Below are positions 24,102 to 34,664 of a DNA stretch of 37,751 bases, piece by piece (position 1 is the stretch's first letter; the number at the start of each line of letters is the position of its first letter). Origin of the DNA: a bacterium (GTDB lineage: Bacteria > Hydrothermota > UBA3073 > JACQXS01); contig JAUVIV010000015.1 in NCBI GenBank assembly GCA_030592575.1, positions 1 to 37,751 of the forward strand. Reading direction: 5' to 3'. The translations under genes were made by a program, and so were the position numbers. The notes beneath the pieces are model-generated. The model had not been told where the DNA came from, made no database searches, and saw only the letters and a list, made by a program, of their open reading frames with translations.

Positions 24102-24128
24102 TTGACATCTTTTGATAAGGTGTATAAT
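24102..24128 (+). promoter_or_regulatory. sigma70-like promoter TTGACA-15-TATAAT
   Basis: Perfect -35 and -10 boxes with a short 15-bp spacer, 14 nt before the ATG at 24142. Confidence 0.5.
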
Positions 24129-24141
24129 TTTTAAACAGAAT

Positions 24142-25797
24142 ATGAGAGAATATAAAAATTTACAGAAACTCCTAATTATACTTTTTTTCATTTTATCTGT
24201 AGTACCTCTTTTTTTAGTAACTTATCTCTCCTATGAAAGATCTCGGAATTCTTTATACAAAAGCATTACAGAAAACTTAACTCAAATTACAAGAGATAAA
24301 GCTTCTGCTATTAATAATTGGATATTTGAAAGAGTCTCCAATGCAAAGGTAATTTCTAAGTCTCCATGGATAATAGAGATATTAAAACATCCACAAACCA
24401 CATATAAAAGCTCAGAATTAGTTAGTTATTTAAAATTAGCAAAAGAGAGTTACGGTTGTTATGATGAGATATTTATACTTGATGTCAACGGGAATTTTGT
24501 TATTGGCTCAGACAAAAAGGAAGAAAATAAAGCAAATAAAGATTATTTTATAAGTGCTGTAATCGGAAATCCAATAGTTACTGATATAAGAATGTCCGAA
24601 TCTACTGGCAAGCCCACTATGTTTGTATCTTATCCTATTGAAGATAAGAATGGTAAAATAATCGGGGTTCTAATTGAGAGAATCAAATTAGATTTGATAA
24701 GCAAGATAATGGAAGAAATTAAAGTAGGCAAAACAGGTGAGAGTTATTTGTTAAATAAGGAAGGATATTTTCTCACTGAATCAAAATTTGCTCCTAAATG
24801 CATATTAAAAGAAAAAGTCTCTACTAAAGGTTATGAAAACTGTATCAAGAACCATCAAGGAGTAGGAGAGTATATTGATTATAGGAGCAAACCTGTTTTA
24901 GGAAGTTATCTCTGGATACCGGAAAGAGAATGGTGCTTAATAGTCGAACAAGATGTAGAAGAAGCTTTTCTTCAAATATCAAGATTGAGAAATACTACTA
25001 TAGCAATATGCTTAACTGTTGTATTACTTGCCGTATGTGTTTCTCTTCTAATTTCCACCAGAATTGTAAATATTTTAAAGAGAAAAGATGCTAAATTGGA
25101 TATTCAGATGAAAGAACTTTTAAAGGTAGAAAAATTATCAGCTGCCGGCAAACTGGCTGCCGGTATTGCACACGAAATTGGCAATCCGTTAGCAGGGATA
25201 ATAAATTGCGTTAAACTAATTCAAACAGACCAAAATAAAGAAGGCGAAAAAGTTGATAAGTATCTGAACTCAATTTCGAGAGAAGCAATGAGGTGCAACA
25301 AAACCATTAGAAATTTCTTAAATTTCACTCGGGAATCTGAATTAAAAATTGGCAAGGTTGCTATTAACCAGATTATAGAAGATACACTTCTACTCATTAC
25401 ACCTCAGGCATCTGCACAGAATGTAATCATAGATACAAAATTAGATATTATTCCGGAGATATTAGCTGATGGAATTCAACTTAAGCAAGCATTTACCAAT
25501 ATAATATTAAATTCCTTGAGTGCTATGTCGGGTGGAGGTAAATTACACATTCAAACATTAGAGAAAAATGAGTATGTCGAAATAATATTTTCTGATACAG
25601 GAACCGGTATCAAAGAAGAGTATCGTAATAAGATTTTTGAGCCATTTTTTACAACAATGCGAGAAGGAACAGGACTCGGGCTGTCAATCGTTTACAATAC
25701 AGTAGATAAACATAATGGAAATATTGAAGTAGAAAGCGAAACTAATAAGGGAACAAAATTTACAATAAGATTGCCTAATAAAACAGGAGAAATATAA
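24142..25797 (+). CDS. membrane sensor histidine kinase (Cache-like sensor, HisKA, HATPase_c)
   Basis: ATG at 24142 (the track's TTG is inside the promoter); LAAGIAHEIGNPLAGIINCVKLIQ; IFSDTGTGIKEEYRNKIFEPFFTTMREGTGLGLSIVYN. Confidence 0.92.
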   Translation: MREYKNLQKLLIILFFILSVVPLFLVTYLSYERSRNSLYKSITENLTQITRDKASAINNWIFERVSNAKVISKSPWIIEILKHPQTTYKSSELVSYLKLAKESYGCYDEIFILDVNGNFVIGSDKKEENKANKDYFISAVIGNPIVTDIRMSESTGKPTMFVSYPIEDKNGKIIGVLIERIKLDLISKIMEEIKVGKTGESYLLNKEGYFLTESKFAPKCILKEKVSTKGYENCIKNHQGVGEYIDYRSKPVLGSYLWIPEREWCLIVEQDVEEAFLQISRLRNTTIAICLTVVLLAVCVSLLISTRIVNILKRKDAKLDIQMKELLKVEKLSAAGKLAAGIAHEIGNPLAGIINCVKLIQTDQNKEGEKVDKYLNSISREAMRCNKTIRNFLNFTRESELKIGKVAINQIIEDTLLLITPQASAQNVIIDTKLDIIPEILADGIQLKQAFTNIILNSLSAMSGGGKLHIQTLEKNEYVEIIFSDTGTGIKEEYRNKIFEPFFTTMREGTGLGLSIVYNTVDKHNGNIEVESETNKGTKFTIRLPNKTGEI

Positions 25798-27164
25798 TGC
25801 GTATTTTAATTATTGATGACGAAGCTATAATAAGAGAAACTCTTTCTGATTGGTTAGAGAGAGAAGGATATATTATAGAAACAGCAACTACAGGAGAAGA
25901 AGGAATCAAAAAAGAAATAAAGAATAAATTTGATATGGCAATAGTTGATCTTAGACTTCCGGGAATGGACGGAATAGAGATTATCCACAAACTAAAAGAG
26001 ATGTCTCCTAATATATCTGTAATAATGATAACCGCTTACGCAACAATTGAAACCGCTGTTAGTGCAATGAAAGAAGGAGCATCTGATTACTTAACAAAAC
26101 CCTTTAACCTAGAAGAAATTAGTTTGGTTGTAAAAAGAATAGCAGAACATCAAAGATTAATCGCAGAAAATGTTCTCTTAAGGAAACAACTGCAAGAACG
26201 ATATAGTTTTAAAAATATTGTAGGCAAAAGTCCAAAAATGCGAAAAATATTTGAACTGATTGAAAGCATTGCTGATAGCGATTCCACAGTATTAATTCAG
26301 GGAGGAAGTGGAACTGGAAAAGAAGTTATAGCTCGAGCTATTCATCAGAGAAGCCTGAGAGTAAATAATCCATTTGTAACAGTAAATTGTGCAGCAATAC
26401 CTGACAATCTTCTTGAAAGCGAATTGTTTGGTTACAATAAGGGAGCTTTTACCGGTGCTTTACAAGATAAAAAAGGAAGATTTGAACTTGCAAATAAAGG
26501 TACACTATTCTTGGATGAAATAACTGATATGAGCCCTGCAGCACAAATTGATTTACTTCGGGTATTACAGGAAAGAGAATTTAGAAGAGTAGGCGGTTCA
26601 AAATTAATTCCGCTTGATGTTCGGATTATAGCCGCAAGCAATAAAAATATAGAGAAAGAAGTAGCAAACAATAATTTTAGAGAGGATTTATATTACAGAT
26701 TAGATGTTATCTCCATTTACTTACCACCACTTAAAGAAAGAAAAGAAGATATACCATTTTTGATAACTCATTTTCTGAAAAAATATAGTAAAAAAACCAA
26801 AAGAGAAATAAAAGGTGTATCAAAAGAAGCACTTGTCTTACTAATAAGATATGACTGGCCCGGTAATGTTCGAGAATTGGAAAATATGGTAGAACGAGCT
26901 ATAGTACTTGGTAAAGAGGAATTCATAATACCAAATGATTTGCCCGAAAGGATAAAAAAGACTTCGAGTAAACAGGAGCACGTGCTCCCATCTACCCGGT
27001 ACTCTCTTGGTAAATCACTTGAAGAAATAGAGAAGGAACATATAACCAGTATTTTACAAGAAACAAACTGGAATTTTTCCCAAACAGCAAAGATACTCAA
27101 AATAACTCGTACAACACTCTATAATAAAATCAAAAAATACAGGATTAAAAGATTAAAAAATTAG
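25797..27164 (+). CDS. sigma-54-dependent response regulator (NtrC/AtoC family)
   Basis: Receiver ILIIDDEAIIRETLSDWL...VDLRLPGMDG; GGSGTGKEVIARAIHQRS; NKGAFTGAL (GAFTGA); C-terminal Fis-type HTH FSQTAKILKITRTTLYNKIKKY. Confidence 0.97.
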   Translation: MRILIIDDEAIIRETLSDWLEREGYIIETATTGEEGIKKEIKNKFDMAIVDLRLPGMDGIEIIHKLKEMSPNISVIMITAYATIETAVSAMKEGASDYLTKPFNLEEISLVVKRIAEHQRLIAENVLLRKQLQERYSFKNIVGKSPKMRKIFELIESIADSDSTVLIQGGSGTGKEVIARAIHQRSLRVNNPFVTVNCAAIPDNLLESELFGYNKGAFTGALQDKKGRFELANKGTLFLDEITDMSPAAQIDLLRVLQEREFRRVGGSKLIPLDVRIIAASNKNIEKEVANNNFREDLYYRLDVISIYLPPLKERKEDIPFLITHFLKKYSKKTKREIKGVSKEALVLLIRYDWPGNVRELENMVERAIVLGKEEFIIPNDLPERIKKTSSKQEHVLPSTRYSLGKSLEEIEKEHITSILQETNWNFSQTAKILKITRTTLYNKIKKYRIKRLKN

Positions 27165-27359: not shown

Positions 27360-27465
27360 GATTTACTAATCAGGAAAACAAGTGTACTTATTCCATTTTT
27401 TCCTTGTGGGTTCCCATTATTAAGACTTTTTTTGTTCTTTGTCACAATGTTTGCTTATAAAATAT

Positions 27466-27687: not shown

Positions 27688-27835
27688 AGGTAAAATTAAA
27701 TGCTCAAGTTGTGATAACGAAATGATGAAGGGAGAAAAAAATTCACATGAAATTGGTAAAAATAAAGAAAGATACTATTTTTGTCCTTATTGTTTTACCT
27801 ATTCTATTGTATCTGAAATAAAAGAGGAGGAATAA
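27653..27835 (+). CDS. small zinc-ribbon-like protein
   Basis: CSSCDNEMMKGEKNSHEIGKNKERYYFCPYC (two CxxC pairs); overlaps both neighbouring genes. Confidence 0.65.
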   Translation: MAIYLKKETKNKGKIKCSSCDNEMMKGEKNSHEIGKNKERYYFCPYCFTYSIVSEIKEEE

Positions 27836-29124
27836 TGTCACCGGAAGAATTAAATCCTTTCAAAATAGCTCAGAAGCAATTCGATGAGGTTGCAACCCAA
27901 CTTAATTTGTCAAAAGATATTTGCGGTATTATCAGAGAACCATTAAGAGAACTTCATTTCAATATTCCGGTAAGAATGGATGATAAATCTATCAAGGTTT
28001 TTCAGGGATTTAGAGTTCAACATAATGATGCAAGAGGACCAACCAAAGGAGGTATTCGTTTCGCACTTAATGAAACAATTGATACCGTTAAAGCCCTTGC
28101 TATGTGGATGACCTGGAAATGTGCTGTTGCCGATATTCCTTTAGGAGGAGGCAAAGGCGGTGTAGTAGTTGACCCTGCAACCCTATCTGACAATGAGAAG
28201 GAAAAACTTTGTCGAGGATGGATTCAACAAACATACAAAAATATTGGACCACTCGTAGATGTTCCTGCTCCAGATATTGGGACAACTCCTCAAATGATGG
28301 GCTGGATGATGGATGAATATACAAAATTGAAAGGGGAATTCTATCCGGGTGCAGTTACCGGTAAACCTGTTGATAGTGGTGGCTCATTGGGCAGAACAGC
28401 AGCAACTGGATTTGGAGTTATTGTTACTGTACGCGAAGCACTTGAATATCTTGACCTTGATGTTAAAAAATGTTGTGCCTCAATTATGGGATTTGGAAAT
28501 GTTTCCCAGTACGCAGCTACCAACTTTGTAAAACTTGGTGGTAAGGTTATTGCCGTATCTTATTGGAATAGAAATGATAAAAAATCTTACACCATAAGCA
28601 AAGCTTGTGGAATTGACCCTTATTTCTTACAATCAATTACCGACCAGTACGGTGCAATAGATAACAAAAAAGCAGAAGCAAATGGCTATAGCATTGAAGA
28701 TGGTAATGCCTGGTTATCAAAAGAAGTAGATGTTCTTATTCCTTCGGCAATAGAAGGAGTAATCAACAGAGATACAGTAAAAAATATTAGTCCAAAGGTA
28801 CGAATTATTGCTGAAGCTGCAAATGGACCAACAACACCAGAAGCTGATATAATCCTTAAGGACAATCCCAATGTTTTTGTTATTCCTGATTTTTTATGTA
28901 ATGCCGGTGGAGTAATTTGCTCATATTTTGAAGGAGTACAAAATAATATGAACTTCTATTGGAGTGAAGAAGAAGTTAATCAGAAATTAGATCAAAAGAT
29001 GGTAAACGCATTCCATCGTGTATTCAAAATGGCTAAAGAAAGAAAGGTTTATACGAGAAATGCCGCCTATATGGTTGCAATAAAGAGTGTTGCAAAAGCA
29101 ATGAAATTAAGAGGTTGGATCTAA
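27835..29124 (+). CDS. gdhA: Glu/Leu/Phe/Val dehydrogenase (glutamate dehydrogenase)
   Basis: VQHNDARGPTKGGIRF; MTWKCAVADIPLGGGKGGVVVDP; DVPAPDIGTTPQMMGWMMDEY; ATGFGVIVTVREAL. Confidence 0.96.
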   Translation: MSPEELNPFKIAQKQFDEVATQLNLSKDICGIIREPLRELHFNIPVRMDDKSIKVFQGFRVQHNDARGPTKGGIRFALNETIDTVKALAMWMTWKCAVADIPLGGGKGGVVVDPATLSDNEKEKLCRGWIQQTYKNIGPLVDVPAPDIGTTPQMMGWMMDEYTKLKGEFYPGAVTGKPVDSGGSLGRTAATGFGVIVTVREALEYLDLDVKKCCASIMGFGNVSQYAATNFVKLGGKVIAVSYWNRNDKKSYTISKACGIDPYFLQSITDQYGAIDNKKAEANGYSIEDGNAWLSKEVDVLIPSAIEGVINRDTVKNISPKVRIIAEAANGPTTPEADIILKDNPNVFVIPDFLCNAGGVICSYFEGVQNNMNFYWSEEEVNQKLDQKMVNAFHRVFKMAKERKVYTRNAAYMVAIKSVAKAMKLRGWI

Positions 29125-29141
29125 CTTCTTATAAACTTTAT

Positions 29142-29810
29142 ATGCCGAAATCCATATTTGTTGAAAACTTAAGTAAAGAAAATTCAAAAAAATTAACTTA
29201 TCTTGTCAATGCCCCTGATAAAGAATTAGGCAAAAGAGCAAAGATAATACTCTTGTCCAGTCAAGGATATACAATCTCCGAAATAAGCAAAAATGTAAGT
29301 ATCCATTATCAAAATGTGAGGAAATGGATATATCGATTTTCAGAAATCGGAGTGAATGGTCTTTATCACGGCAATAAAGGCAAAAAAAACAAACTCAAAT
29401 ATGGAAAAGAAACAAAAAAAAGAATAGCAAAAATAGCAAGATTAAAACCAAATAGCATTGGCTTACCGTTTACCAAATGGACATTAGATAAATTAAAGGA
29501 ATATCTTGTTCAAAAGAAAATAGTAGAGCCGAAAATTGCAATAGAAACAATAAGAAATATACTTATGATTAACAAAATAGACTGGAGAAAAAAAAGAGAA
29601 GAATCTATCAACTTACCTACGAACAAAGTCCTAATTCATCTCGGCAACAAAAGTAAGATCGTAATAGGAAAAAACAAAGAATCCATTTTTGATAGAGAAG
29701 AAAGCTCTATTATGAACCAAGAGATAACTATAAAGAAACCTACCACATTATTCGCCAGCTACGACCCCCTCACAAACAAATTAATCGTAAGACTTCACAA
29801 AAAAATATAA
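29142..29810 (+). CDS. IS630-like transposase-derived HTH protein lacking most of the DDE domain
   Basis: ATG at 29142; HTH KRAKIILLSSQGYTISEISKNVSIHYQNVRKWIYRFSEIGVNGLYHGNKGKK; ends TTLFASYDPLTNKLIVRLHKKI, resembling an internal IS630 DDE segment. Confidence 0.7.
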   Translation: MPKSIFVENLSKENSKKLTYLVNAPDKELGKRAKIILLSSQGYTISEISKNVSIHYQNVRKWIYRFSEIGVNGLYHGNKGKKNKLKYGKETKKRIAKIARLKPNSIGLPFTKWTLDKLKEYLVQKKIVEPKIAIETIRNILMINKIDWRKKREESINLPTNKVLIHLGNKSKIVIGKNKESIFDREESSIMNQEITIKKPTTLFASYDPLTNKLIVRLHKKI

Positions 29811-29937: not shown

Positions 29938-30414
29938 ATGGAATTTAATTTAAACAAAGTTGATTCTGTAATTGATAAGCATCCGGCTAAAAGGGATGCG
30001 TTAATTTCTATACTCCAAGATATACAATCAGAATACAATTGGCTACCTCGAGAAGCAATTATTGAAGTTAGTAAAAAGTTAAATATTCCTCTAATTGATG
30101 TTTATGGAGTAGCTACATTTTTTAGTCAATTCAGTCTCAAGCCAAGAGGAAAACATATTATTACAGTCTGTCTTGGAACTGCTTGTCATGTAAGAGGTGG
30201 TCCAAGGATTTTAGATGAATTTTCAAGACGACTTAATATAAAAGCAGGTGAAACAACCGAGGATATGCAATTCACATTAGAAACCGTGAACTGTCTTGGG
30301 TGTTGTGCAATAGGACCGGTGGTAGTTATAGATGGTGAATATTACGGTGGAATGACTTCAAGAAAAATTGATTCTTTATTAGCAAAGCATACGAAAGTAG
30401 ATAGTAACCAGTAA
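29938..30414 (+). CDS. NuoE/HydC-like NAD(P)H-dependent oxidoreductase subunit ([2Fe-2S] thioredoxin-like)
   Basis: YNWLPREAIIEVSKKLNIPLIDVYGVATFFSQF; VCLGTACHVRGGP; TVNCLGCCAIGPVVVIDG. Confidence 0.95.
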   Translation: MEFNLNKVDSVIDKHPAKRDALISILQDIQSEYNWLPREAIIEVSKKLNIPLIDVYGVATFFSQFSLKPRGKHIITVCLGTACHVRGGPRILDEFSRRLNIKAGETTEDMQFTLETVNCLGCCAIGPVVVIDGEYYGGMTSRKIDSLLAKHTKVDSNQ

Positions 30415-30434
30415 ATAAAAGGATTAAAACTTAA

Positions 30435-32294
30435 ATGAATAAGATAAAAAATATTGATGAACTGGGAAAGATAAAAACTGAGATTATTAAAAACCTTTCT
30501 CCAGAGACCCCTTGTATAATAATATCTTGTGGAACTTGTGGACAAGCAAGAGGTGCGTTAAAGATTGTAGAAGCATTCAGGGATGCAATCAAGAAATTAG
30601 AAACAATTCAGGAATTACCTATACAATTACGAATAACCGGATGTCATGGATTCTGTGAAGTTGAGCCAAACATAATTATTGAACCGGAAGGAATATTTTA
30701 TGTAAAACTAAAACCGGAAGATGCAGAAATTATTATAAAAGAAACTATTATTAATAAAAAAATAATTGATAGATTGCTTTATGTTGACCCGGTAACAGGT
30801 AAAAAAATTGCTTACAAAAAAGATATACCTTTTTATAAGTATCAAAATCAACTAATTTCCGGTAATAATTCTCTTATTGACCCCACAAAAATTGATGATT
30901 ATATTGCTATAGATGGCTACAAAGGACTTGCAAAAGTTTTAACTGATATGAGTCCTGAAGATGTAATTTCGGAAGGCAAAAAATCAGGTCTTCGTGGTAG
31001 AGGAGGGGCTGGCTTCCCAACAGGACTAAAGTGGGAAATATGCAGAGCATCAAAAGGCGAAACAAAATATGTAATTTGTAATGCTGACGAAGGAGACCCT
31101 GGTGCTTATATGGATAGAAGCTTACTTGAAGGAAATCCACATTCAATTATAGAAGGAATAATAATAGGAGCTTACGCCATAGGTGCAAAAGAGGGAATTG
31201 TTTATGCAAGAAACGAATATCCTCTGGCAGTAAAAAATGTTGGTATTGCAATTGAGAAAGCAAGAGAATATGGATTTTTGGGAAAAAATATATTTGGAAC
31301 TGACTTTAGCTTTGACATAAAGATAGTAAAAGGAGCAGGAGCATTTGTTTGTGGAGAAGAAACAGCTCTTATTGCCTCAATTGAAGGAAAAAGAGGAGAA
31401 CCACAACAGAGACCTCCATTTCCGGCACAAAAGGGATTATGGGGCAAGCCGACAAATATAAATAATGTAGAAACTTGGGCTAATGTACCTGTTATAATAA
31501 ATAAAGGAGCAGATTTGTATTCTAAAATTGGAATTGGCCGAAGCAAAGGGACAAAAATATTCTCTCTGGTTGGAAAAATAAATAATACAGGATTAGTTGA
31601 AGTACCAATGGGCATACCTCTCCGAGAAATTGTGTATGATATAGGAGGAGGAATCCCCAAGGGCAAAAAATTCAAAGCAGTTCAAACAGGTGGACCTTCC
31701 GGCGGATGTATTCCGGCAGAGTTACTTGATTTACCTGTAGATTACGACAAGCTCACAGAAGTAGGTTCTATTATGGGCTCCGGTGGAATGATAGTAATGG
31801 ATGAAAATACTTGTATGGTAGATATTGCAAAATATTTTTTGAACTTCTTGCGTGACGAATCTTGTGGTAAATGTCTCTCTTGTCGTGAAGGACTTGATAG
31901 GATGTATGAAATTCTGAATGATATTACAGAAGGTCACGGCACTATGGAGCAACTTAATTTACTTGAGGAATTAGCTCCTGTTGTGAAAGAAGCATCTATG
32001 TGTGGACTTGGGCAAACTGCAAGTAATCCTGTCTTAAGCACATTACGATATTTTAGAGATGAATATGAAGCACATATAAAAAGCAAGAAATGTCCGGCTG
32101 GTGTATGTAAAGCTTTAATTGAGTATTCTATAGATCCAGAAAAGTGTACTGGATGTACGGCATGCGTGAAAGCTTGTCCTCAAGAAGCAATTATAGGCGA
32201 AAAAAAGAAACCACATAAAATCAACCAAAACGAATGCATTAAATGTGGAGCATGTAAGGATATTTGCAAATTTGATGCAATAAAAGTAGAATAA
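30435..32294 (+). CDS. NuoF/HydB-like subunit (N-terminal 2Fe-2S, FMN/NADH domain, C-terminal 2x[4Fe-4S])
   Basis: GLRGRGGAGFPTGLKWE; CNADEGDPGAYMDRSLLEGNPH; ESCGKCLSCREG; CTGCTACVKACP and CIKCGACKDICK. Confidence 0.96.
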   Translation: MNKIKNIDELGKIKTEIIKNLSPETPCIIISCGTCGQARGALKIVEAFRDAIKKLETIQELPIQLRITGCHGFCEVEPNIIIEPEGIFYVKLKPEDAEIIIKETIINKKIIDRLLYVDPVTGKKIAYKKDIPFYKYQNQLISGNNSLIDPTKIDDYIAIDGYKGLAKVLTDMSPEDVISEGKKSGLRGRGGAGFPTGLKWEICRASKGETKYVICNADEGDPGAYMDRSLLEGNPHSIIEGIIIGAYAIGAKEGIVYARNEYPLAVKNVGIAIEKAREYGFLGKNIFGTDFSFDIKIVKGAGAFVCGEETALIASIEGKRGEPQQRPPFPAQKGLWGKPTNINNVETWANVPVIINKGADLYSKIGIGRSKGTKIFSLVGKINNTGLVEVPMGIPLREIVYDIGGGIPKGKKFKAVQTGGPSGGCIPAELLDLPVDYDKLTEVGSIMGSGGMIVMDENTCMVDIAKYFLNFLRDESCGKCLSCREGLDRMYEILNDITEGHGTMEQLNLLEELAPVVKEASMCGLGQTASNPVLSTLRYFRDEYEAHIKSKKCPAGVCKALIEYSIDPEKCTGCTACVKACPQEAIIGEKKKPHKINQNECIKCGACKDICKFDAIKVE

Positions 32295-32296
32295 AA

Positions 32297-32998
32297 ATGA
32301 TTACTATAAATTTAAATAAAGTTGATGTAAAAGTAGAAGAAGGTTCAACTATTCTTGAGACATGTAAGTTTTATAGTATTCCAATTCCTACGCTTTGCTA
32401 TCATGAGGGACTTAGTCCCGGTGGTGCTTGCAGACTTTGTATTGTTGAAGTAGGTACACCTGAAAACTTCAAAGTCGCTTCTTCCTGCACTTATCCTGTT
32501 AGAGAAGGATTAGTAGTTCGCACCCATACAAAGCGGATAATTGAAATAAGAAAAATGCTTATTGAGTTGCTTGTAGCATTATGCCCAAGCTCAAAAACAA
32601 TTCAGGACTTGGCATCCGAGTATGCAGTAACTCACGTAAGATTCAAACCGAAAAATAAGGATTGTGTTCTGTGCGGGTTGTGTGTAAGGATGTGTGCCGA
32701 ACAAATGGATGCAAAAGCAATTGGGTTTGTTGGTCGTGGAATCAATAGGGAAATCACTACGGCATTTGATGTAAAATCAGATGTTTGTAGAACTTGTGGT
32801 GCATGTATGTATATTTGCCCTACCTGTCAGATGAGATGCCAGGGACCTGAACCATCAGGAGTTCTTTGTAATAGTTGTTTGAACATTTCTTATCCCTGTG
32901 TGGATGTGCATAATCAGGTAATGTGTTATATGGACCCTTGTGGAGCTTGTTTATTAAAAGAATCAGAAGAAAAAAAGAAAGTAGTCAGTAGCAAGTAA
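32297..32998 (+). CDS. 2Fe-2S/4Fe-4S protein related to the NuoG/HydA N-terminus (no hydrogenase or molybdopterin domain)
   Basis: TLCYHEGLSPGGACRLCIVEV...VASSC; CVLCGLCVRMC; CRTCGACMYICP; extra C-terminal Cys cluster. Confidence 0.9.
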   Translation: MITINLNKVDVKVEEGSTILETCKFYSIPIPTLCYHEGLSPGGACRLCIVEVGTPENFKVASSCTYPVREGLVVRTHTKRIIEIRKMLIELLVALCPSSKTIQDLASEYAVTHVRFKPKNKDCVLCGLCVRMCAEQMDAKAIGFVGRGINREITTAFDVKSDVCRTCGACMYICPTCQMRCQGPEPSGVLCNSCLNISYPCVDVHNQVMCYMDPCGACLLKESEEKKKVVSSK

Positions 32999-33083: not shown

Positions 33084-34664
33084 ATGTCTCTTACGAAAAT
33101 AAATTCTAGTGCAGCTACATTAACAAAAAATAGAACAGAAGATTCGATAATTCCAACATCCGGAATGTGTGCTACCTGTGTCGATGGGTGCATAGGAATG
33201 TGCGAAATAGGAAAGTCCGCTTATAGAGGTGTAGAAGCAATATACCCACAACCGTTTGGAATAATCACGAGTGCAGGTGAGAAAGCTTATCCTGTAGATT
33301 ATTCTCATTTTTCAATAATGGGAACTTGTGTTGGTGCAAAAGGAATTGAACAGGACTCCGATAAAGCTATATTCCCGAATGTTAATCTTGGTGTTAAAAT
33401 AGGGCAGGATAAAGGAATTAAATTAAAACTGCCTCTTATAATTCCCGGTCTTGGAAGTACAAAAGTAGCAAAAATTAACTGGGATGGTTTGGCAATAGGC
33501 GCCGCTCTTGCAGGTGTTCCACTTACTATTGGAGAGAATGTCTGTGGAATGGATTCGGACTCAGAAATTAAAAATGGGAGAATAGTTCGTGCACCTGACC
33601 TTGAGAGAAGAATAAGATTATATAAAGAATGGCAACAAGATGGACACGGAGAGATAATACTTCAAGCAAATATAGAAGATACAAGACTCGGTGTACAGGA
33701 ATATGGAATAGAAAAGCTTGGCATTAATGTTGTTGAACTCAAATGGGGACAGGGAGCTAAAGATATTGGTGGAGAAGTTAAAATTGAAAACTTAGAGAGA
33801 GCACAATTACTCAAAAAACGAGGATATGTTGTTTTACCAAATCCACTTGATAAAGATGTCATAGAAGCATTTAATAGAGGAGCTTTTAAAGAATTTGAGC
33901 GACATTCAAGAGTTGGAATGGTAGAGGAAGAAGGTTTCTTGAAAAGAGCAGAAGAATTACGCAAAGCAGGTGCTAAGTATGTTTTCTTGAAAACAGGAGC
34001 ATATAGACCGGCAGATCTGGCAAGAGCAGTAAAATATGCAAGCAAAGCAAAAATTGACTTACTCACAGTAGATGGAGCAGGAGGCGGAACCGGAATGAGT
34101 CCTTGGAGAATGATGAACGAATGGGGCGTTCCACCTGTTGAGCTTCATTCTTTATTGTATCAATATGTTGATAAACTTGCAAAAAAAGGAGAATATGTTC
34201 CGGATATTGCAGTAGCCGGAGGATTTACTCTTGAAGACCAGATATTCAAAGGACTTTCGCTTGGAGCACCTTATGTCAAACTCGTAGGTATGGCAAGAGC
34301 ACCACTCGCAGCAGCTATGGTTGGAAAAACTATTGGTAAAAAAATAGACGTCGGTGAAGTTCCTGTATATATTGAACGATTTGGAACAACAAAGGAAGAA
34401 ATATTTGTTACAGCCGCTGACCTCAAAAAGGAAATTGGAACTCGTTTCAATAACGTTCCTCCTGGAGCATTAGGGCTTTATACTTATTATCAGAGAATTT
34501 CACAAGGGTTAAAACAGCTTATGGCTGGAAACAGAAAATTCGGATTGGAGCACATTACTCGTGATGATATTTCTGCTTTAACCAAAGAATCAGCCGAAAT
34601 AAGTGGTATTAGTTATATAATGGATGCTGATAAAGAGGAAGCAGAGAAAATACTAAACTCTTAA
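33084..34664 (+). CDS. FMN-binding glutamate synthase-related protein (GltB FMN domain family)
   Basis: ELKWGQGAKDIGGEV; LLTVDGAGGGTGMSPWRMMNEWGVPPVE; IAVAGGFTLEDQIFKGLSLGAPYVKLVGMA; AAGGAGG ribosome binding site. Confidence 0.9.
   Translation: MSLTKINSSAATLTKNRTEDSIIPTSGMCATCVDGCIGMCEIGKSAYRGVEAIYPQPFGIITSAGEKAYPVDYSHFSIMGTCVGAKGIEQDSDKAIFPNVNLGVKIGQDKGIKLKLPLIIPGLGSTKVAKINWDGLAIGAALAGVPLTIGENVCGMDSDSEIKNGRIVRAPDLERRIRLYKEWQQDGHGEIILQANIEDTRLGVQEYGIEKLGINVVELKWGQGAKDIGGEVKIENLERAQLLKKRGYVVLPNPLDKDVIEAFNRGAFKEFERHSRVGMVEEEGFLKRAEELRKAGAKYVFLKTGAYRPADLARAVKYASKAKIDLLTVDGAGGGTGMSPWRMMNEWGVPPVELHSLLYQYVDKLAKKGEYVPDIAVAGGFTLEDQIFKGLSLGAPYVKLVGMARAPLAAAMVGKTIGKKIDVGEVPVYIERFGTTKEEIFVTAADLKKEIGTRFNNVPPGALGLYTYYQRISQGLKQLMAGNRKFGLEHITRDDISALTKESAEISGISYIMDADKEEAEKILNS

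Follow-up and report, generated by a model that had tools for sequence, protein, structure and literature searches.

How do electrons reach the flavin of a glutamate-synthase-like protein that lacks the [3Fe-4S] cysteines of canonical glutamate synthase (GltS)? The window, meaning the whole stretch of 37,751 nucleotides that was analysed, raises this question with a 526 amino acid protein encoded on the forward strand (33084-34664; ATG at 33084, stop codon ending at 34664), with an AGGAGG-like ribosome binding site just 5' of the ATG. A first-pass annotation held that this subunit had lost the canonical cysteines and gained an N-terminal CxxCxxxCxxxC motif, and that electron entry to FMN had been rewired, perhaps through iron-sulfur partner subunits. 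The protein and its family are called GltL, a name coined in this analysis.

Pfam gave a single match to GltL, PF01645 (47.5 bits), over residues 280-400 only, which represents a partial glutamate synthase barrel. The same search identified no glutaminase, central, GXGXG or Fer4 domain, and no NCBIfam model matched GltL or the relatives tested; neither collection has a model dedicated to the family. Searching the PDB with the GltL sequence produced no match, GltS included, and a GltL profile found only short matches to designed barrels and again no GltS. A GltB2 control found GltS structures at 3e-47. Using hhalign, GltL was aligned with GltB2-type glutamate synthase with 98.6% probability over 339 columns. 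An AF2 model based on 47 family members (pLDDT 86.8, pTM 0.89) was then submitted to Foldseek, which returned FMN-dependent barrels, namely lactate and glycolate oxidases, IDI-2 and GltS (1ofd/7mfm). The best E-values went to the oxidases and IDI-2; of the matches listed, GltS structures scored near the top by query-normalised TM-score (0.47-0.48). Comparison with a viral fold library led nowhere. From its fold and conserved motifs GltL is predicted to bind FMN, and the family comprises widespread, unstudied flavin enzyme subunits.

The N-terminus of GltL contains SGMCATCVDGCIGMCE, in which CX2CX3CX3C occupies residues 29-40 (Cys 29, 32, 36 and 40; codons 33168-33203, + strand) and forms a proposed [4Fe-4S] site. 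The four cysteines are invariant in 87/87 close homologues from many phyla, which led us to reject chance or a sequencing artefact, and the longer pattern SGxCxxCxxxCxGxCE is present in 47/47 GltL family members of 38-79% identity. C399-x5-C405-x4-C410 of GltB2 falls opposite a Cys-free stretch of GltL in the hhalign profile-profile alignment (residues about 411-430; 34314-34373, + strand). Both cysteine observations of the first-pass annotation were therefore confirmed. Its third, a single Cys in GENVCGMD, is present as C154 but carries no weight. C154 and C82 are conserved in just 32/87 and 12/87 homologues and were rejected as extra ligands. In the AF2 model a loop predicted with moderate confidence (mean pLDDT 78) covers the four-Cys segment (31-40) and leads directly into a well-predicted helix (41-51; pLDDT 87).

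The talk of loss and gain did not survive comparison with relatives. In 20 Bacillota regions and one further relative, L129, the N-terminal motif was kept in all and C-x5-C-x4-C was found in none. Canonical GltS/GltB2 proteins, mostly taken from genomes with a GltL of their own, show the reverse: C-x5-C-x4-C was identified in 18/18 readable sequences, and the N-terminal motif was absent from all those checked. The condition that the first-pass annotation set for its own refutation, an N-terminal motif common in characterised GltS, did not hold. L113-L115 were left out of these controls since their longest ORF was not confirmed as the matching ORF. Because of this reversal the motif state appears to be old and the family's own, and a lineage-specific change in the window genome was rejected, the state being common to the whole family across many phyla. 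Judged from sequence, GltL is no rewired glutamate synthase; it belongs to an FMN-barrel family that is old and distinct.

GltL is encoded in an operon with the order bfuC-bfuB-bfuA-gltL, in the window (module 29938-32998) as in relatives. The bfuC gene (29938-30414, + strand), whose start was inferred at an internal ATG of the 29893 ORF, encodes a NuoE/HydC-like protein with a thioredoxin-like [2Fe-2S] domain (PF01257) and is syntenic in relatives. The NuoF/HydB-like BfuB (30435-32294, + strand; 619 amino acids) has an FMN/NADH domain, an N-terminal thioredoxin-like region, a 51K 4Fe-4S domain and two Fer4 domains. PF01512, PF10589 and PF00037 scored over the cut-off, and SLBB scored slightly below it (26.2 bits against 27). 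Among solved structures, bifurcating enzymes are the nearest to BfuB, with a phmmer match of 4.7e-247 to subunit B of a bifurcating NiFe hydrogenase (7t2r). BfuA (32297-32998, + strand) is a short NuoG/HydA N-terminal part with one [2Fe-2S] and two Fer4 clusters (PF13510, PF12838) and no catalytic domain. Judged by these predicted domains, the window operon is a member of the Bfu family.

The cluster cysteines of BfuA are all invariant in 80/80 sequences. The picture for the BfuBC core is mixed: BfuB Cys 477, 480, 483, 523, 553 and 558 are found in 63/63 with both Fer4 sets kept in the window protein, and BfuC Cys 93, 98, 134 and 138 are found in 57-58/59, but N-terminal cysteines vary and one long-BfuB relative has a DPD_II domain instead of the Fer4 sets. 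BfuA also has a C-terminal tail (32822-32995, + strand) with eight extra cysteines (177, 181, 191, 194, 201, 210, 215 and 218), likewise invariant in 80/80, that had no match in Pfam or the PDB. This tail is a proposed Fe-S or Zn link to GltL, and its eight cysteines could bind Zn.

Relatives of the operon differ in architecture. The window BfuB is the short form, and 34/63 relatives have a long BfuB of about 1000-1100 amino acids. In one of these (L072:6138-9314, ~1060 amino acids) a GltD-type Fer4_20/DPD_II plus FAD/NAD(P) module, fused at the end of BfuB, replaces the two Fer4 domains and would give the protein an additional NAD(P)H site. An extra, weakly zinc-ribbon-like C-terminal BfuC domain with eight cysteines occurs in 32/59 relatives (for example L062:5209-6054) and is absent in the window. 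Ten loci encode a small Cys-containing protein of ~100 amino acids and unassigned family just upstream of bfuC (for example L079:4574-4894).

In 79/79 loci extending at least 700 bp upstream of gltL, the gene immediately before it is a same-strand bfuA, usually 0-150 bp away, and the operon is found across Bacteria and Archaea. The 147 genomes of the window's phylum were then scored for GltL (34/147) and the BfuA tail (33/147). Both were present in 32, the tail only in 1, GltL only in 2 and neither in 112 (Fisher 8e-29, kinship ignored). The three mismatches are a partial tail, a GltL at the start of a contig and a relative without Bfu. A second GltL paralogue adjoins the operon at L024, L055, L012, L041, L045 and L016, in some Bacillota and methane-oxidising archaea, the L016 copy being a tandem, shorter ORF; its presence suggests an alternative substrate subunit.

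The family also occurs without the module. 53/200 Bacillota genomes have a GltL family member, and the Bacillota relatives stand alone, often beside IclR-like regulators. Members without any Bfu module keep the four cysteines, and the N-terminal site may therefore have an origin independent of a Bfu complex. Rewired entry through iron-sulfur partners thus stands in part: the partners are Fe-S subunits, with bfuA adjacent throughout and its tail cysteines invariant, but the site belongs to a separate, older family and is shared by Bfu-less members. If GltL-type proteins can work without Bfu, as these members indicate, GltL might be an ordinary ammonia-dependent glutamate synthase served by ferredoxin or NAD(P)H, and the Bfu genes in its operon would encode a separate complex. 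We consider this improbable given the unbroken adjacency, co-inheritance with one specific BfuA tail, and an operon that offers that BfuA no other catalytic subunit.

We favor, at roughly even confidence, a model in which a soluble BfuABC-type bifurcating complex has GltL as its third-substrate subunit, with electron entry through a four-Cys [4Fe-4S] cluster and 2-iminoglutarate/glutamate as the likely substrate. BfuC, BfuB, BfuA and GltL would form one soluble electron-bifurcating complex with GltL as the catalytic subunit. BfuBC would handle NAD(H) and ferredoxin, and BfuA, through its [2Fe-2S] and two [4Fe-4S] clusters and the eight-Cys tail, would pass electrons to the N-terminal [4Fe-4S] cluster of GltL. 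That cluster, standing in for the [3Fe-4S] cluster of GltS, would exchange electrons with the barrel FMN, which would reduce, or in reverse oxidise, a small substrate. The assembly of the subunits into one complex, the type of cluster and its distance to FMN, FMN itself, the substrate, the direction of the reaction and bifurcation are all predictions of the model. Cys spacing alone is no proof of Fe-S, and the four cysteines might instead form a Zn or structural site, with electrons reaching FMN directly from BfuA. One-electron entry into FMN requires a nearby cluster, however, the members checked have no C-x5-C-x4-C motif and the partner is Fe-S-rich, all of which makes a Zn or structural site unlikely.

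Gene neighbours were examined for clues to the substrate. A glutamate dehydrogenase (GDH) gene (27835-29124, + strand; PF00208/PF02812) lies upstream of the operon in the window. GDH was found within 1.2 kb of the operon in 17/86 loci (15 same strand, 2 divergent), before or after it, across several phyla, against a rough chance expectation of 0.3. Farther upstream are a Cache-domain histidine kinase (24112-25797, + strand) and a sigma54-activating response regulator (25797-27164, + strand), and NtrC-type regulators homologous to this pair precede bfuC in 19/45 relatives. A promoter scan gave a weak, one-mismatch sigma54-like site, TGTCACAATGTTTGC, at 27440-27454 between the response-regulator gene and GDH. 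Between GDH and bfuC lies a 231 amino acid ORF with transposase-type helix-turn-helix domains (29115-29810), probably an insertion-sequence fragment parting two genes that lie side by side in relatives.

A Bfu-less GltL relative in one genome of the same phylum (L129:1155-13601), ~46% identical to the window GltL, heads a gltL-asnA-amt-PII-glnA-gltB-gltD cluster. Since this genome also has a complete GltBD, the relative is not simply GltS. PF00310 was not found anywhere in the window's genome, and a glutamine-dependent GltS with its glutaminase encoded elsewhere was rejected. Among 50 sampled GltL genomes, 40 had no GATase_2 domain and 33 had no other strong glutamate synthase domain. GATase_2 is rare throughout the window's phylum (5/147 genomes); its absence there is no marker of GltL, and the idea that it is a GltL-specific property was rejected.

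Together the GDH neighbours, NtrC-type regulators, L129 cluster and missing glutaminase make glutamate/2-oxoglutarate plus free ammonia the leading candidate substrate. The substrate would most likely be 2-iminoglutarate/glutamate with nitrogen from free ammonia, not glutamine, an assignment suggested by remote homology and by the genes nearby. Redox potentials are about -0.12 V for 2-oxoglutarate/glutamate, -0.32 V for NADH and -0.45 V for ferredoxin. NADH-driven amination could thus in principle pay for ferredoxin reduction; in the alternative direction, ferredoxin could pull glutamate oxidation. Counting against glutamate, GDH is adjacent in just about a fifth of loci, a substrate of such high potential as 2-iminoglutarate is unusual for Bfu, and the nitrogen-assimilation context of the Bfu-less relative comes from one genome.

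The same complex and electron path might serve a non-glutamate substrate, such as another 2-oxo or hydroxy acid, an imine, an unsaturated acid or a carrier. Other FMN barrels (glycolate/lactate oxidase, IDI-2) act in this way and are the ones with the best Foldseek E-values. The GltS substrate-loop motif SPxxHxD is replaced by FERHSRxGM in GltL, so its pocket may differ from that of GltS. Several Bacillota relatives lie beside IclR-like, phenylacetate-CoA-ligase-like or aminotransferase-like genes, named by reading their sequences. Set against these points are the hhalign homology to GltS, the high GltS TM-scores and the association with GDH, and we regard a non-glutamate substrate as a real possibility that falls short of probable. 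Glutamate within the preferred bifurcating model is equally tentative: it is plausible, at less than even confidence, that the complex couples 2-oxoglutarate amination or glutamate oxidation to NADH and ferredoxin via the N-terminal [4Fe-4S] cluster. A bifurcating or confurcating glutamate synthase/oxidoreductase of this kind would be widespread in anaerobic bacteria and methane-oxidising archaea.

The pairing of GltL with a bifurcating module points to an unrecognised coupling of amino-acid chemistry to energy metabolism in anaerobes. If this is true, one soluble enzyme ties nitrogen or amino-acid metabolism directly to ferredoxin-level energy conservation in many lineages of uncultured anaerobes, among them ANME archaea and Methanoperedens. 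The Bfu family would gain an amino-acid-type third substrate, and FMN-barrel synthases could be powered via a quite different iron-sulfur entry site.

Comparison with known systems places GltL near, but outside, the glutamate synthases. It shares the FMN-barrel fold and the QGAK.GG, DG.GGTG.SP and GG motifs with GltB/Fd-GltS (1ofd, 1llw, 7mfm), but has an N-terminal CX2CX3CX3C instead of C-x5-C-x4-C and lacks the glutaminase, central and GXGXG domains. GltL may work like glutamate synthase; lacking that cluster motif and those domains, it should not be called one, and 'glutamate synthase' labels on the family are unsafe. GltB2-type proteins (L089, L091) are similar in size (about 490-530 amino acids) and also have an FMN barrel without a glutaminase domain, but they carry an N-terminal CxxCxxCxxxC dicluster ferredoxin and the 3Fe-4S motif, and GltL has neither. 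Passages on F420-linked glutamate synthase gene clusters in a study of ANME genomes contain no bfu-gltL operon (PMC9012536).

A 2022 survey of Bfu lists hydrogenase, Fdh, Nfn, Wor, Bam, Por, Codh, F420, Mbh, Nuo and rubrerythrin types and assigns no function to 17 BfuB clades (PMC9304861). No GltS-like subunit is among the functions it lists, and 'glutamate' is absent from its main text. As that survey describes the Type 2 (Wor-, Bam-, Por-) Bfu (HydABC) enzymes, the window operon resembles them in having a complete BfuB, BfuC, an extra catalytic subunit and a short BfuA with one Fer2 and two Fer4 domains (PMC9304861). Three things set it apart from that description (PMC9304861): the GltS-like FMN barrel that serves as its extra subunit, the eight-Cys tail of BfuA and, in about half of its relatives, the long BfuB that carries a GltD-like FAD/NAD(P) module. 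The Sporomusa-type transhydrogenase Stn, in the account of its subunits, fuses the GltD-like part to a NuoG-like subunit, unlike the long-BfuB relatives, and has no GltL subunit described; what it shares with those relatives is a NuoE/NuoF-like core combined with a GltD-like module (PMC7483475).
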